A stretch of DNA of 49,837 nt, taken from contig CACLST010000005.1 in NCBI GenBank assembly GCA_902609675.1, positions 1 through 49,837 of the forward strand, given 5' to 3'. The notes under the pieces are model-generated. The model was not told the DNA's origin. It ran no database searches and worked only from the letters and a program-made list of their open reading frames with translations. The position numbers and the translations under genes are program-made. The stretch comes from an uncultured Pelagibacteraceae bacterium. Its GTDB lineage: Bacteria > Pseudomonadota > Alphaproteobacteria > Pelagibacterales > Pelagibacteraceae. Shown here piece by piece: positions 4,093 through 23,162 of the stretch (position 1 is the first letter of the stretch; the number at the start of each line of letters is the position of its first letter).

Positions 4093-4521
4093 ATGACTGA
4101 AACTATAGAACAAATTTGCCTAAAGAAAGGTGTCAAACTTACTGATCAAAGAAAAATAATTGCTAAAGTCTTATCTGAGTCAAAAGAAGTTTATGGTGAG
4201 TCTGATCATCCCGATGTTGATGAATTATATCAAAGAGTTTCTAAGTTAGATTCAAAGATAAGTATTGCTACAGTTTATAGAACAGTTAAGCTTTTTGAGG
4301 AATCTGGCATACTAACCAAGCACGATTTTAAAGGTGGAAAAGCAAGATATGAAACATTAGTTGAAAGTCATCACGATCATCTTATTGATATTAAATCAGG
4401 AGAAATTATTGAGTTTGTTGATGAAGAAATAGAAAAACTACAAAAAAAAGTTGCAGAAAAGTATGGATATAACTTAGTAGATCATAAATTAGAGCTTTAT
4501 GGAATTAAAAAAAGTAAATGA
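4093..4521 (+). CDS. fur: Fur-family metalloregulator (Fur/Mur type)
   Basis: Cytoplasmic transcriptional repressor of metal homeostasis. The winged-helix domain spans about residues 8-85, with the recognition-helix sequence ISIATVYRTVKLFEE. The dimerisation domain has the regulatory metal site ESHHDHLIDIKSGEIIEF. The structural-zinc CxxC of E. coli Fur is replaced here by IDIKSG, as in rhizobial Mur/Fur proteins that respond to manganese or iron. The length of 142 residues is normal. The gene is 34 bases upstream of miaB. It is a different protein from the Irr-type regulator at 20226. Which metal it senses cannot be told from the sequence. Confidence 0.9.
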   Translation: MTETIEQICLKKGVKLTDQRKIIAKVLSESKEVYGESDHPDVDELYQRVSKLDSKISIATVYRTVKLFEESGILTKHDFKGGKARYETLVESHHDHLIDIKSGEIIEFVDEEIEKLQKKVAEKYGYNLVDHKLELYGIKKSK

Positions 4522-18440: not shown

Positions 18441-19652
18441 TTAGACTTTCTCAAATACTAGAGTTGCATTTGTTCCGCCAAAACCAAAACTATTAGACAT
18501 GACAGTATTTAATGTTGCTTCTGTTTTCGTTTTAGCAACTATTGGAAATTTTTTAGCTTCTTCATCCATTTCGCTTATATTTGCTGACCCAGTTATAAAA
18601 TTATTTTTCATCATAATTAAACAATAAATTGCTTCATGTACTGACGCAGCTCCTAACGGATGACCTGATAAAGATTTGGTCGAACTAATCTTAGGAATTT
18701 CATCTCCAAAAGTATCTTTAACAGCATTTAATTCAGTAATATCTCCAACTGGAGTAGAAGTTCCATGAGTATTTATATAATCTATTTTATTTTTTGAAGT
18801 TGCCATAGCCATTTGCATACATCTTGTTGCACCTTCACCAGATGGCGCTACCATATCATATCCATCTGATGTTGCTCCATAACCTGTTAATTCTGCGTAT
18901 ATTTTAGCTCCTCTAGCTTTAGCATGTTCATATTCTTCAAGAACTAAAACCCCTGCACCTCCAGCAATTACAAAACCATCTCTAGTTTTGTCATAAGCTC
19001 TTGAAGCTTTTTCAGGAGTATCATTATATTTAGAAGATAATGCAGTCATTGCATCAAACATTGCTGTCATCGCCCAGTGTATCTCTTCACTACCGCCTGC
19101 AAAAACAACATCTTGTTTACCCATTTGGATAAGTTCCATAGAGTTTCCAATACAGTGTCCGCTTGTTGCACAGGCTGAACTCATTGTATAGTTTGTACCT
19201 TTTATTTTAAAAGGCACAGCAAGTGTTGCTGATGCTGTACTTGCCATGGTCCTTGGTACAATAAAAGGTCCCATCAATTTTGGAGTTTTGGCTCTAGTTT
19301 TATCGGCTGCTAAAATGACATTTTCAATTGAAGGTCCTCCTGAACCCATTACGATTCCTGTTTTGAAATTACTTACTTCACTTTCTTCTAAGCCAGAGTC
19401 TTCAATTGCCTCTTTCATTGCAATATAATTGTAAGCAGATCCTGAACCCATAAATCTAATTGTTTTTCTATCTATATGATCCTCAAGTTTGATGTTAGGC
19501 TTTCCATGAATATGACTTTTAAGATTGTGTTCTTTATATTCTTCTGAAAATGAAATTCCTGATTTAGTATTTAATAAAGATTGATGAACTTCTTCCTGAT
19601 TATTCCCAAGGCATGAAACAATTCCCAAACCTGTAATTACTACTCTTCGCAT
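18441..19652 (-). CDS. fabB: Beta-ketoacyl-ACP synthase I
   Basis: Condensing enzyme for fatty acid elongation, needed for unsaturated fatty acids together with FabA. It has 403 residues in a thiolase fold. The active-site cysteine is in [12 protein letters not shown]. The two catalytic histidines are in [11 protein letters not shown] and [14 protein letters not shown]. The C-terminal [15 protein letters not shown] is the family signature. Its start overlaps the fabA stop by one base. Pairing with fabA supports FabB rather than FabF. Confidence 0.96.
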
Positions 19653-20152
19653 TATTTAAATAATCCTACTTTTAGACTGTCTGCAGAGTATATTTTTTTT
19701 CCATCAGCAAGAAGAATACCATTCGCTAATCCAACTGTTGTTTCGCCTTTAATCAATATTCTTTTCATATCAATAATATATGTTGCCATTTTGACATCTT
19801 TTAAAACCTCTCCTGTAAACTTTACTGTGCTTACTCCTAAAGCTCTTCCTCTTCCAGGATTTCCAAGCCAACCCAAGTAAAAGCCAACTAGTTGCCACAT
19901 CGCATCTAAGCCTAAACATCCCGGCATCACTGGATCTTCCTTAAAGTGACAATTAAAAAACCACAGATCATCTTTTATATCAAGTTCAGCCTTCATCAAG
20001 CCTTTGTTAAAAGCTCCATTTTTTTCACTAATTTCAGTAATTCTATCAAACATTAGCATTGGTGGAGAAGGTAATTTTGCATTTCCAGGGCCAAAAAGCT
20101 CGCCATTTGCGCAGCTTATTAATTCATCATAATCAAAGGAACTTTTTTTCAT
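19652..20152 (-). CDS. fabA: 3-hydroxydecanoyl-ACP dehydratase/isomerase
   Basis: Introduces the cis double bond in anaerobic-type unsaturated fatty acid synthesis. It is a hotdog-fold enzyme of 166 residues. The active-site region [20 protein letters not shown] contains the catalytic His, and the Asp lies in [15 protein letters not shown]. It is the first gene of the fab operon and diverges from irr across a 73-base gap. That shared gap contains an ICE-like operator, so Irr might influence both directions; this is not shown by the sequence. Confidence 0.97.
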
Positions 20153-20185
20153 AATTTTTTTAATCTTATTACTTGATTTACAAAC

Positions 20186-20220
20186 ATTATAATATAGATA
20201 TTCTTTAGAATAATTATAAT
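20186..20220. promoter_or_regulatory. fabA-irr intergenic promoter region with ICE-like Irr operator
   Basis: The segment 20204-20220 reads TTTAGAA-TAA-TTATAAT. Against the iron-control-element consensus TTTAGAA-N3-TTCTAAA described for alphaproteobacterial Irr, the left half is perfect and the right half matches 5 of 7. It ends 5 bases before the irr ATG. Two palindromic octamers ATTATAAT (20186-20193 and 20213-20220) contain perfect TATAAT -10 hexamers. If 20188-20193 is the irr -10 box, the ICE would lie over or just after the start of transcription, as expected for autorepression. Confidence 0.5.
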
Positions 20221-20225
20221 TAGTA

Positions 20226-20654
20226 ATGGCTTACTCAGACCAATATATAGACAAATTAAGAAAATCAGGTCTAAGACCCACAAAACAAAGAATTAAAATT
20301 TGTGAAGCGTTGTTTAATGCTGAAAAGACTTTTCACTTTACAATTAAAGAACTGGTTAAAATCATTGAAAACCAAGCAAATATTAAGGTTTCTTTAGCAA
20401 CTGTTTACAATACTGTTCACGCATTTATGAAGAAGGGTTATTTAAAAGAGATTCCACTAAATGCTTCACAAAGTTATTACGATACAAATGTAACTCATCA
20501 TCACCATTTCTTTGACGAGGAAGAAAATAAATTGATTGATATTCATCAAGATGATGTTGATGAAATTAATATTAAAAGAACAATCCCAGGAAAAAAAATA
20601 AGATCAGTAGAAGTTATTGCTAAAATTGTGAGTGATAATCAATCTCAAAAATAA
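20226..20654 (+). CDS. irr: Irr-type iron response regulator (Fur family)
   Basis: Fur-superfamily repressor that senses iron through heme status in alphaproteobacteria. It has 142 residues. The N-terminus [20 protein letters not shown] and the wing sequence [21 protein letters not shown] match Irr. The histidine cluster [18 protein letters not shown] corresponds to the heme-binding HxH region. No CP heme-regulatory motif is present, as in several non-Bradyrhizobium Irr proteins. Adjacency to fabA-fabB-fabI is the standard alphaproteobacterial irr context. Rubrerythrin downstream has ICE-like sites, which supports the assignment. Confidence 0.87.
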
Positions 20655-20683
20655 TTCAATAATATCAATAGTTTAAATAGTAG

Positions 20684-20754
20684 ATTATATTTATTCTAAA
20701 CTGTTGACATATTATAATTCCTCTATATATAAACCACTTTAGAATCATTATTAA
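20684..20754 (+). promoter_or_regulatory. Rubrerythrin promoter flanked by two ICE-like sites
   Basis: A -35 TTGACA (20704-20709) is followed by an overlapping TATATAAA run (20726-20733) giving -10 choices at 16-18 base spacing. Upstream, 20684-20700 reads ATTATAT-TTA-TTCTAAA: the right ICE half is perfect and the left matches 4 of 7. Downstream, 20738-20754 reads TTTAGAA-TCA-TTATTAA: the left half is perfect and the right matches 5 of 7. The second site covers the expected transcription start. A good Shine-Dalgarno AGGAG (20759-20763) lies 5 bases before the ATG, unusual among the weak leaders of this window. Confidence 0.6.
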
Positions 20755-20768
20755 TAGTAGGAGTAAAT

Positions 20769-21185
20769 ATGTCATTAAAAGGTAGTAAAACAGAGGAAAA
20801 TTTAAAAGAAGCATTTGCTGGAGAAAGCCAAGCAAATAGAAGATATCTTTATTTTGCTCAAAAAGCGGATGTTGAAGGCTTTAACGATGTAGCAGCAGTA
20901 TTTAGATCAACTGCAGAAGGTGAAACTGGACATGCTCATGGTCACTTAGAATATTTAGAAGAAGTAGGTGATCCTGCAACTGGTAAGCCAATTGGTGAAA
21001 CAAAAGCCAATCTTGAGTCTGCAATTCAAGGTGAAACACACGAGTACACAGATATGTATCCTGGAATGGCTAAAACAGCTAGAGACGAAGGCTTTGATGA
21101 AATAGCTGATTGGTTTGAGACTTTAGCAAAAGCTGAAAAATCACACGCGGGTAAATTTCAAAAGACTTTAGAAAGCATCGCTTAA
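20769..21185 (+). CDS. rbr: Rubrerythrin-type di-iron protein (erythrin domain only)
   Basis: Non-heme di-iron protein, probably a peroxide-scavenging or iron-handling ferritin-like protein in the cytoplasm. It has 138 residues. Metal-ligand motifs are visible in [39 protein letters not shown] and [11 protein letters not shown]. The C-terminal rubredoxin domain of classical rubrerythrins (about 190 residues) is absent and there is no cysteine, so electrons must come from a partner. The next gene, a multi-cluster Fe-S protein, is a candidate. It has the strongest promoter and Shine-Dalgarno of the neighbourhood, suggesting high or inducible expression. Confidence 0.93.
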
Positions 21186-21191
21186 ACAAAA

Positions 21192-21221
21192 TTTGTGGAC
21201 GAAACCCCTCTCGTCCACAAA
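21192..21221 (+). promoter_or_regulatory. Strong intercistronic hairpin after rubrerythrin
   Basis: TTTGTGGACGA (21192-21202) and TCGTCCACAAA (21211-21221) form a perfect 11-bp stem with an 8-base C-rich loop. It begins 6 bases after the rubrerythrin stop and ends 20 bases before the Fe-S gene. It is followed by A and mixed bases rather than a T-run on the plus strand, so it is not a canonical terminator. It more likely protects the 3' end of the rubrerythrin message or dampens downstream expression. Confidence 0.75.
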
Positions 21222-21241
21222 AAATCACATCCAAAAAAATT

Positions 21242-22567
21242 ATGAGTAAAGAAGGCAGCACACAAGCACCTACAAGGCACCCATTAAAATTCAGAGATCC
21301 AGATTTTGTAAATCCTGAAAAAATTGATCAGGAAATGAGAAGAGTATTTGATATCTGTCATGGATGTAGAAGATGTTTTAACTTGTGTGATAGTTTTCCA
21401 AAATTATTTGACTTTATCGATGAAACCGAGGGTGGCGAGGTATCAGATCTTTCAAGTGACAAATTTAAACCTGTTGTAGACTCTTGCACTTTGTGTGACA
21501 TGTGTTTTATGACTAAATGTCCTTATGTACCACCACACGAATTTGATTTAGATTTTCCTCATTTAATGTTGAGATATAGAACAGCCCAAAGAAAAAATGG
21601 TGATATTTCGAAAACTGCCATCCAATTAACCCAAATTGATAGAAATTCTAAAATAGGAATATTTTTTAGCTTTTTTATTAATTGGATTACAAATGTTAAA
21701 AATAAATTTGCTAGAAAAGTTCTAGAATTTTTTACTGGAATAGACAAAAGAGTTATTTTGCCAAAATATAATAAAGAAACATTTGCAAATTATTTTCAAA
21801 AATTTAAAAAAAATATTTTACCAAAACACAAAGGGAGAAAAGTTGTAATTTATTCCACATGTTTTGTTAATTTTAATAAGAAAAAAACTGGAGAAGCAGC
21901 TTTAAAAGTACTTCATCATAATAATATAGAAGTAGAGCACTCTTATGCAGGTTGTTGTGGTATGCCTTATCTGGAACAAGCGGATCTAGATCAAGTTACA
22001 AAGCAAGCAGAGTTAGTCTCTAGAGAATTAATCAAATATGTCGAAAAAGATTATAAAGTAGTAACCTTAACAGCAAGTTGTGGATTAATGTTAAAGTTCG
22101 AATGGCCATTATTAATGCCAAATGACGGAATAATTAAAAAACTTTCTCAAAATACTCTTGATATTGATGAGTATGTTATGGATATTGCGAATAAAGAGGG
22201 TTTAGTTGATGGTTTGAAAGAAATTGATGGTGGAGTAACAGTACATAATGCTTGTCATGCTAGAGCACAAAATATGGGTAATAAGGCAAGAGATATGCTT
22301 AAATTAATTCCAAATATTAAATTAGATGTTGTTGAAAGATGTGCAGGTCATGGAGGAACCTTCGGTATTATGAAAGAAACTCATGATATAGCAAATAAGG
22401 TGGGCAAAACCACCGCAAGCACTGTTAAAAGAAAAAATAATAAATATATGGCTTCTGACTGTCCATTGGCTGGTAAACACATCAAGCAGTTGGCTGATGA
22501 TACAAACATAGCAAGTGATGAAGCTGTGCATCCAATTGAGATAGTCTCAAAAAGTTATGGATTATAG
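21242..22567 (+). CDS. Fe-S oxidoreductase with two CCG domains (GlpC/HdrB-like)
   Basis: Probable electron-transfer protein of 441 residues. The N-terminal ferredoxin-like part has CHGCRRCFNLCDSFP and CTLCDMCFMTKCPYVPP, ligands for two 4Fe-4S clusters. Two cysteine-rich CCG-type domains follow, with SYAGCCGMPY and then ERCAGHGGTFG, where the second CCG is altered to CAG. Other Cys lie in YSTCFVNF, TASCGLML and HNACHARAQ. It resembles GlpC/heterodisulfide-reductase subunit families. The arrangement rubrerythrin, this protein, DUF3501 recurs in proteobacteria. I infer that it reduces the rubredoxin-less rubrerythrin; the sequence alone does not prove this. Confidence 0.85.
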   Translation: MSKEGSTQAPTRHPLKFRDPDFVNPEKIDQEMRRVFDICHGCRRCFNLCDSFPKLFDFIDETEGGEVSDLSSDKFKPVVDSCTLCDMCFMTKCPYVPPHEFDLDFPHLMLRYRTAQRKNGDISKTAIQLTQIDRNSKIGIFFSFFINWITNVKNKFARKVLEFFTGIDKRVILPKYNKETFANYFQKFKKNILPKHKGRKVVIYSTCFVNFNKKKTGEAALKVLHHNNIEVEHSYAGCCGMPYLEQADLDQVTKQAELVSRELIKYVEKDYKVVTLTASCGLMLKFEWPLLMPNDGIIKKLSQNTLDIDEYVMDIANKEGLVDGLKEIDGGVTVHNACHARAQNMGNKARDMLKLIPNIKLDVVERCAGHGGTFGIMKETHDIANKVGKTTASTVKRKNNKYMASDCPLAGKHIKQLADDTNIASDEAVHPIEIVSKSYGL

Positions 22568-22568
22568 A

Positions 22569-23162
22569 ATGTCAAAAGAACAAAAAATTATTACAAAAGA
22601 AGATCTTCTTCCTTTAGATGCATACACAAAGGTTAGAAGACAAATGAGAAAAGAATTAGTTGAGTTTAAAAAGAATAGAAGAATACTTTTAGGGCCTTAT
22701 GCAACATTTTATTTTGAATGTTATGAAACAATGATAGCTCAGGTACAAGAAATGCTTTACATTGAAAAGGGTGGAGATGAACAAGTTGCAGACGAACTTG
22801 CTGCATACAATCCTTTAATACCAAATGGAAAAGAATTAGTTGCCACTTTAATGTTTGAGATAGACAATCCTATAATTAGAGCAGAATTTCTTGGAAAGTT
22901 AGGTGGTGTTGAAAATAATATATTTATTAAAATTGGAGATGAAAAAATTTATGCAACCCCTGAAATGGATGTTGATAGAACTTCAGATGATGGAAAAGCA
23001 TCTTCGGTTCAGTTTATACATTTTCAATTTACAGATGATCAAGTAAATAAGTTCAAAGACAAAAGCAATTCAATTGAAGTTGGTATTGATCATAAGGAGT
23101 ATTCACACACAACAAAATTTTCGGAAGATAACATTAAAGCTCTTTCTGCAGATTTTAATTAA
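22569..23162 (+). CDS. DUF3501 family protein
   Basis: Protein of 197 residues from the chosen ATG at 22569, one base after the preceding stop. An in-frame ATG at 22557 would add four residues and overlap the upstream gene. It starts MSKEQKIITKEDLLPLDAY and contains RRILLGPYATFYFE, matching the family of unknown function found with rubrerythrin and CCG-domain proteins. There are no membrane segments. A run near residues 40-70 is rich in aromatic and acidic residues. Function unknown; membership of the peroxide/iron cluster is inferred from position. Its 3' end overlaps the convergent SH3 gene by 8 bases. Confidence 0.8.
   Translation: MSKEQKIITKEDLLPLDAYTKVRRQMRKELVEFKKNRRILLGPYATFYFECYETMIAQVQEMLYIEKGGDEQVADELAAYNPLIPNGKELVATLMFEIDNPIIRAEFLGKLGGVENNIFIKIGDEKIYATPEMDVDRTSDDGKASSVQFIHFQFTDDQVNKFKDKSNSIEVGIDHKEYSHTTKFSEDNIKALSADFN

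Follow-up and report, generated by a model that had tools for sequence, protein, structure and literature searches.

Putative Irr operators of asymmetric form at irr and at an adjoining rubrerythrin or katG gene in SAR11 bacteria

In the alphaproteobacterial Irr/ICE system, known from Bradyrhizobium and from mbfA and ccpA of R. sphaeroides, a regulator of the Irr branch is paired with operators that lie at the start site and carry a TTTAGAA half at N3 spacing. The R. sphaeroides targets, rubrerythrin-like mbfA together with ccpA, are described as having a role in oxidative stress defence, and deletion of irr in that organism is reported to increase both katE expression and peroxide resistance (PMC3413700). 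Irr of Bradyrhizobium is described as undergoing oxidative self-modification (PMC4700492), and Irrs are said in PMC8638967 to retain the Asp of the PerR metal site and to regulate catalases and peroxidases. The PerR regulon, including that of Leptospira PerRA, offers a second parallel, with peroxide-scavenger targets and autoregulation, and the autoregulatory sequence of Leptospira perRA is itself described as Irr-box-like (PMC8638967).

We analysed a 49,837-nt stretch of contig CACLST010000005.1 (GCA_902609675.1) from an uncultured Pelagibacteraceae bacterium, referred to below as the window. Its similarities to the Irr/ICE system are an Irr-branch regulator, the TTTAGAA half at N3 spacing and a candidate operator at the start site, and its similarities to PerR regulons are candidate sites both at the regulator gene itself and at scavenger genes (rbr or katG, and the peroxiredoxin gene prx), together with an H/D/H/H/D ligand pattern that aligns in the window Irr. 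Unlike the classical Irr/ICE system, the window's genus has TTATAA as the second half of the site, merged with a candidate -10 box, and the candidate targets in SAR11 are rubredoxin-less rbr, katG and prx. Unlike PerR, the window protein scores best with Irr models and has no CxxC in the aligned region, and the other half-site is of the ICE type; the half of a PerR box is ATTATAA. Rodionov et al. 2006, a study cited in PMC2864753 and PMC3413700, reportedly reconstructed the iron regulons of Alphaproteobacteria computationally and defined Irr boxes by comparative genomics. Our literature search for Pelagibacter or SAR11 with Irr or Fur found no description of the sites presented here, although that reconstruction may contain some.

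Gene order and the three sites

Among the closest relatives of the window Irr, 64 of the 65 loci found belong to Pelagibacteraceae (SAR11) and are 89-96% identical; a Desulfobacula locus (L095, 26% identity) was excluded from every count. As listed in Table 1, fabA on the minus strand is followed by irr and then by the rubrerythrin unit, both on the plus strand. The rbr product aligns to positions 3-145 of the 194-position RuberyRbr model, and among solved chains it is closest in sequence to rubrerythrins of 140-169 aa and to sulerythrin. Where at least 2.6 kb of downstream sequence is available in the window clade (61 loci), the CHGCRRC motif is present in every locus and the GGD[EA]Q motif of the DUF3501 protein in 59. 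The three genes at 20769-23162, encoding the rubredoxin-less rubrerythrin, the CHGCRRC Fe-S protein and the DUF3501 protein, stay together in this clade, and the Fe-S partner may act as an electron supplier.

Table 1. Features of the irr-rbr locus and the second Fur-family gene, in window coordinates
Feature	Position	Strand	Description
Fur-like paralogue	4093-4521		Second Fur-family gene, ~16 kb from irr; 105 bits, under cut-off 146
fabA	19652-20152	-	Divergent neighbour, shares the irr intergenic region; TIGR01749 256.8 bits, above cut-off
Site 1	20204-20220	+	Asymmetric ICE TTTAGAA-TAA-TTATAA(T), candidate irr operator; TTTAGAATAATTATAAT
irr	20226-20654	+	Fur-superfamily regulator, Irr branch, 142 aa; PF01475 75.8 bits; NCBIfam IrrA 127.3 bits (cut-off 150)
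Site 2	20684-20700	-	Asymmetric ICE, TTTAGAA-TAA-ATATAA on the minus strand, abuts rbr -35 box; ATTATATTTATTCTAAA
rbr -35 box	20704-20709	+	TTGACA, from sequence; TTGAC kept in relatives
Candidate rbr -10	20726-20733	+	TATATA (spacing 16) or TATAAA (spacing 18), putative
Site 3	20738-20754	+	Asymmetric ICE TTTAGAA-TCA-TTATTA, at about +1 of rbr; TTTAGAATCATTATTAA
rbr	20769-21185	+	Rubrerythrin without rubredoxin domain, 138 aa; PF02915
GlpC-like gene	21242-22567	+	CCG Fe-S protein (CHGCRRC), 3' of rbr; PF02754
DUF3501 gene	22557-23162	+	Last gene of presumed rbr unit; PF12007 205.5 bits

The original prediction placed three Irr operator candidates at this locus, each with one perfect TTTAGAA half at N3 spacing, and all three strings, with that half-site, are present at the positions given in Table 1; the last base of the site 1 16-mer lies 6 nt ahead of the irr start codon. 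Its estimate of one such half-site per 1.5 kb or so was too low, as TTTAGAA occurs 46 times on both strands of the window, about once per 1.08 kb, against 42.7 expected. Three half-sites within 551 bp have an uncorrected Poisson P of 0.015. ICE-like strings as such are not enriched in the window: those with at most 3 mismatches number 39 against 32.4 expected, and 14 of 100 shuffles reach 39. Similarity to the consensus, being no better than background, was dropped as the sole criterion for the sites. Since the three strings are ordinary as letters, the case for them comes from recurrence at orthologous promoters.

These counts favour a reading in which the sites are chance A+T-rich matches and conserved promoter boxes, with no operator among them. 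So does the window's own genome, where matches with at most 2 mismatches number 194 against 206 in the control, again without enrichment. The TTATAA half, moreover, is partly explained by the -10 box, and almost all of the fabA-irr spacer is conserved within the window clade. As to the form of the site, the ICE operator is defined as TTTAGAA-N3-inverted TTCTAAA, of which all three sites have the first half; in the second half, what recurs across the window's genus is TTATAA, which points to a putative asymmetric ICE of the form TTTAGAA-NNA-TTATAA.

Recurrence at irr and at the rbr or katG promoter

The divergent set comprised 27 irr loci (L004-L030) with 44-73% Irr identity. In 20 of these, the irr upstream region contains TTTAGAANNATTATAA with no more than 1 mismatch (13 times exactly), mostly 22 nt before the irr start codon; resampled irr upstream regions (order-1, 5400 trials) give such a match in 0.28%. 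This form was not found in the other 7 upstream regions (L022, L023, L025 and L027-L030), among which are the four most distant. A matrix was built from the 20 irr-upstream sites, which come from genomes outside the window clade and represent 8 distinct 16-mers, one having the same sequence as site 1. Over the 49.8-kb window, it ranks site 1 first (19.9 bits), site 2 second (16.3 bits, minus strand) and site 3 fourth (13.3 bits). No position in 2 Mb of order-1 random sequence reaches the score of site 1 or site 2, while a score like that of site 3 is expected 0.65 times per window by chance and is not significant alone; sites 1 and 2 thus stand independently, and site 3 only together with its position. 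The expectation that matrix scores would exceed those of random DNA of like composition is accordingly borne out for sites 1 and 2, with site 3 on its own at background.

Within the window clade, the site 1 16-mer is invariant in 67 copies, which comprise 20 distinct sequences of the fabA-irr spacer and include two loci twice. As proof of site 1 this invariance is weak, since nearly the whole spacer is conserved. A standard -35/-10 promoter for irr was also considered and rejected: TTGAT-N15-21-TATAAT or TACAAT occurs in 2 of 28 loci, and the window has a gap of 9 nt between TTGATT and TATAAT. These two boxes belong to a conserved element, TTACTTGATTTA...TATAATATAG, at 20170-20197 between fabA and irr, which may be the divergent fabA promoter or leader, or the box of another regulator.

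Depending on the lineage, the gene after irr encodes rubrerythrin or KatG. In our set of 61 genomes (the window's and 60 relatives; 58 with an Irr match, the Fur paralogue counted in), rbr is present in 30 and katG in 18, none has both and 13 have neither; the two genes are alternatives for a single slot. Missing contigs can account for the genomes with neither, and nothing is therefore drawn from that group. A joint loss of irr, rbr and katG in 12 genomes, with irr scored absent when its matches were all weaker than E 1e-10, was likewise dropped because assembly gaps can explain it; 11 of these 12 have no fabA match better than E 1e-4, and G013 has only a 51-residue piece of fabA.

In 25 of the 27 divergent loci, the spacer between irr and the next gene contains a matrix match reaching 11 bits or more, the best being at least 13.5 bits in each. 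The two loci without a spacer site are L027, where the gene start was set too early (its genome does have the site), and L029, which has no adjoining rbr or katG. The sites are thus conserved upstream of orthologous irr and rbr or katG genes, a test on which the original prediction had staked itself. The predicted flanking of the rubrerythrin promoter by two sites, one of them over the start, also agrees with the sequence, in which site 2 abuts the -35 box and site 3 lies at the likely start.

Of 67 window-clade copies examined, 57 could be parsed, and in all 57 site 2 begins 19 nt ahead of TTGACA. The 10 unparsed spacers have TTGACT as their -35 box and/or a site 3 starting with ATTAGAAT, CTAGAAT or CTTAGAAT, so that the first T of site 3 is not invariant; the 67 copies all share TTCTAAA in site 2 and TAGAATC in site 3. 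A minus-strand match of at least 11 bits starts exactly 19 nt ahead of TTGAC in 15 of the 27 divergent loci. On the other side of the -35 box, 19 of the 27 divergent loci have a match beginning 10-12 nt downstream of the first base of that box. The TTATAA-type half falls on a candidate -10 in 18 of 27 divergent rbr or katG promoters, at spacings of 15-17 nt, 7 of these 18 overlaps requiring the short 15-nt spacing. Site 3 of the window clade is found further along, 33-36 nt from the start of the -35 box, where transcription probably begins; L004, the closest divergent locus, shows a match at each of the two positions (11 and 34 nt). The distance from site 2 to site 3 is 52-55 nt in the window clade versus 29-31 nt in the divergent loci with both, which would correspond to about five and about three helical turns, respectively. 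The placement of site 3 over the likely start, or over the candidate -10 in relatives, fits repression.

The fixed 19-nt distance between site 2 and the -35 box, found in 57 of 57 parsed window-clade copies and in 15 of 27 divergent loci, also speaks for a dual role of Irr at rbr, with activation from site 2 under low iron and repression from site 3. Moreover, rbr promoters of a second family have a palindromic ICE in the same upstream place, and Irr is described as activating or repressing according to the position of the ICE (PMC7762939). Against this, in most loci site 3 or its equivalent lies over the candidate -10 or the region around +1. Whatever the sense of control at rbr, position and conservation support well the predicted autoregulation by Irr (putative site 1 in 20 of 27 divergent irr upstream regions) as well as the candidate operators on rbr, and we consider it highly probable that the sites are conserved operators of an Irr-linked regulon.

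Other candidate targets and the Fur-type boxes

Across the 61 genomes, the exact pattern TTTAGAAYNATTATAA occurs at 63 places: irr 17, katG 17, prx 6, an sfuC-like gene 5, rbr 2 and elsewhere 16. Five gene types thus account for 47 of the 63, and the remaining 16 equal the count of the reversed-pattern control (16). As the pattern was written after the sites at irr, rbr or katG and prx were known, the counts for these genes are not blind; the sfuC-like gene was unforeseen. The palindrome TTAGAAYNRTTCTAA (TTAGAA-N3-TTCTAA) occurs at 28 places (rbr 20, katG 2, elsewhere 6) against 14 in the control, both control totals being manual sums over tables; it is found at rbr in the second family, in the upstream, site 2-like place. 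That the sites are chance matches and promoter boxes is contradicted by the concentration of exact matches at five gene types, with the others at control level, and by the recurrence at irr and the matrix scores; the TTTAGAA half, furthermore, recurs though it is no promoter element. We regard that reading as extremely improbable.

Inspection by eye of the 22 places counted as elsewhere found no adjoining ferritin, haem-synthesis or Fe-S assembly gene. Several other neighbours, also named by eye, were noted. A palindromic ICE lies 22-68 nt before a TAXI-type TRAP substrate-binding gene in L230 (G023), L232 (G020) and L233 (G015), possibly as a lineage-specific target or by chance. In the second family, a palindromic ICE precedes a second, Prx5-like peroxiredoxin gene near the sfuC-like gene (L237 in G056 and L249 in G042). 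The single exact site 130 nt before a proteorhodopsin-like gene (L179 in G050) is probably due to chance.

The survey of the window's own genome at up to 2 mismatches took in 53 loci among the matches listed and considered scores of at least 12.4 near the locus centre, so weaker targets may be missed. This genome has a 16.9-bit site 22 nt before a peroxiredoxin gene, which was called from an NCBIfam score of 129.5 bits over a 150-residue piece (under the cut-off) and which we take to be of the 1-Cys type. Among 24 prx loci, such a site was found in 10, from the window clade (the window's genome included) as well as from the second family, and not found in 14. A site of 18.0 bits runs over the stop codon of a gene for an ABC ATPase; a small HTH-regulator gene begins about 150 nt further on (both genes identified by eye). 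In 8 of 24 loci (L293 (G000:C34), L294, L295, L298, L301, L303, L310 and L314), the HTH-regulator gene is preceded at 143-156 nt by a match scoring 13 bits or more, and this site could be a further target or chance. Two further intergenic sites in the window's genome are weaker, at 13.5 and 15.0 bits.

We call the gene sfuC-like because it resembles ferric-binding proteins and has Fur-type boxes; its NCBIfam matches are weak, under cut-off and to phosphonate-binding proteins only. GATAATCATT-like Fur-type boxes stand upstream of it in both families, in those of the 34 loci inspected (of 50; one truncated where its contig ends) that have an intact upstream region. Second-family loci also have an ICE-like site within 35 nt of the sfuC-like start in 19 of 22 cases, 6 of them with more than 14 bits, which suggests joint control by Fur and Irr at these promoters. 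Among the upstream regions of this family (L250-L271), the Fur-type box and the ICE-like site stand about 36 nt apart. The second-family sfuC-like sites and the matches at the HTH gene imply that the regulon may not be purely one of peroxide defence. Within the window's genus, the targets found besides irr are for the most part peroxide scavengers, and the sfuC-like gene, a putative iron-uptake gene, has Fur-type boxes; in the window's genome, the 200 nt upstream of this gene contain a Fur-type box only, with a matrix maximum of 7.9 bits.

The sfuC-like promoters bear on whether the three sites could belong to the Fur-like protein encoded in the window rather than to Irr. Fur-family boxes look alike, and that gene is at hand; but Fur boxes with GATAAT-type repeats are not matched by the three sites and stand at the sfuC-like gene, both kinds occur side by side in the second family, and the maximum of 7.9 bits contrasts with 19.9, 16.3 and 13.3 bits for the three sites. 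Control by the Fur-like protein is accordingly very improbable, and Irr is the likely binder of these putative operators. The OxyR model gave nothing above its cut-off in the 61 genomes, with one control genome above it; matches below the cut-off in 27 of the 61 (best 117 bits against a cut-off of 329) mean that a distant LysR-type peroxide regulator may still be present.

The Irr protein and its possible signal

The gene next to the sites had been predicted to be irr, and its product is Irr-like by its best NCBIfam models (IrrA 127.3, Irr 119.8, PerRB 64.6, PerRA 61.3 and Fur 34.4 bits); with the first two scores below the curated cut-offs of 150 and 170, it is a divergent member of the Irr regulators. 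Among proteins of solved structure, it matches 2fe3, a peroxide operon regulator, and 5nl9, a Fur-family protein, best in sequence; these are presumably B. subtilis PerR and Leptospira PerRA. In the alignment with 2fe3, residues H37, D86, H92-H94 and D105 align with the five regulatory-metal ligands of PerR, H/D/H/H/D, and they are invariant in all 27 aligned Irr sequences (of 28, one was left out for an internal stop). Such ligand-like residues are common to Irr proteins generally and are no proof of peroxide sensing. The invariant H92-H94 also forms the His cluster, or candidate HxH haem-binding motif. The window Irr has no N-terminal haem regulatory motif (Cys-Pro) of the Bradyrhizobium type; this motif is described for B. 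japonicum and some others, and because the mechanism in R. leguminosarum differs (PMC7762939), its lack does not bar Irr membership. The Cys4 structural zinc site of PerR is likewise absent, CENC of 2fe3 aligning to DEEE of the window protein, and a CxxC motif is described as absent from PerRA, PerRB and Irrs as well (PMC8638967).

From the sites, their recurrence and positions and the gene set, we infer a mechanism in which Irr from the neighbouring gene would bind site 1, downstream of the conserved TATAAT box, and limit its own synthesis. At sites 2 and 3 around the rbr promoter, it would block RNA polymerase and hold down the rubrerythrin/Fe-S/DUF3501 unit, and in the window's genome it would also act on the peroxiredoxin gene elsewhere. 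As the TTATAA half is the candidate -10 at most relatives' rbr or katG promoters, binding of Irr there would preclude recognition by polymerase and vice versa. Inactivation of Irr by hydrogen peroxide and/or haem, acting at the His cluster, would free the scavenger genes together, and Irr here would then do the job of PerR. Taken as a whole, with asymmetric ICEs bound by Irr, repression, and release by peroxide or haem in a PerR-like regulon, this is our best explanation and one that we hold to be slightly probable; on relief of repression by peroxide or haem, our judgement is evenly balanced.

The original prediction had the rbr unit repressed at low iron, which the one published measurement that we found does not support. 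In iron-limited Ca. P. ubique, rbr (SAR11_0399) mRNA is reported to rise 1.57-fold (P = 0.025), and irr is grouped with stationary-phase genes and is not iron-responsive (PMC2864753). These data count against a classical Irr of the rhizobial type, which would be active at low iron or haem, repress rbr as an iron-consuming protein and autoregulate. All the site evidence (recurrence at irr, matrix ranks and genome-wide places) is compatible with such an Irr, and apo-Irr is described as binding ICE boxes (PMC7762939). However, irr and peroxide scavengers make up the named targets in the window's genus, with no ferritin, haem-synthesis or Fe-S assembly gene seen by eye next to the 22 other places, and we consider a classical Irr unlikely here. 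The dual role at rbr would account for the 1.57-fold rise, but this is a small effect at P = 0.025 (PMC2864753), and activation from site 2 seems to us more doubtful still. Peroxide is absent from the main text of PMC2864753, so these iron-limitation data do not test the peroxide signal of the mechanism that we prefer.

Marine surveys regularly find SAR11 cells to be the most numerous microbes (PMC2864753). Their genomes are small, and it matters which switch sets their peroxide defence. We suggest tentatively, and with some doubt, that SAR11 Irr replaces PerR and OxyR: one repressor inactivated by peroxide or haem, acting at a hybrid of ICE and -10 box, would control an exchangeable rbr-or-katG slot together with a peroxiredoxin gene, and iron uptake would be left to Fur in the window's genus. 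The Irr-type and Fur-type sites can be told apart at the base level, side by side in second-family promoters, and the site motif is usable for reading metatranscriptomes. The alternation of rbr and katG under the same putative operator yields a direct prediction for peroxide and iron responses; if the proposal is true, the scavenger under the operator would swap between lineages while the switch stays.
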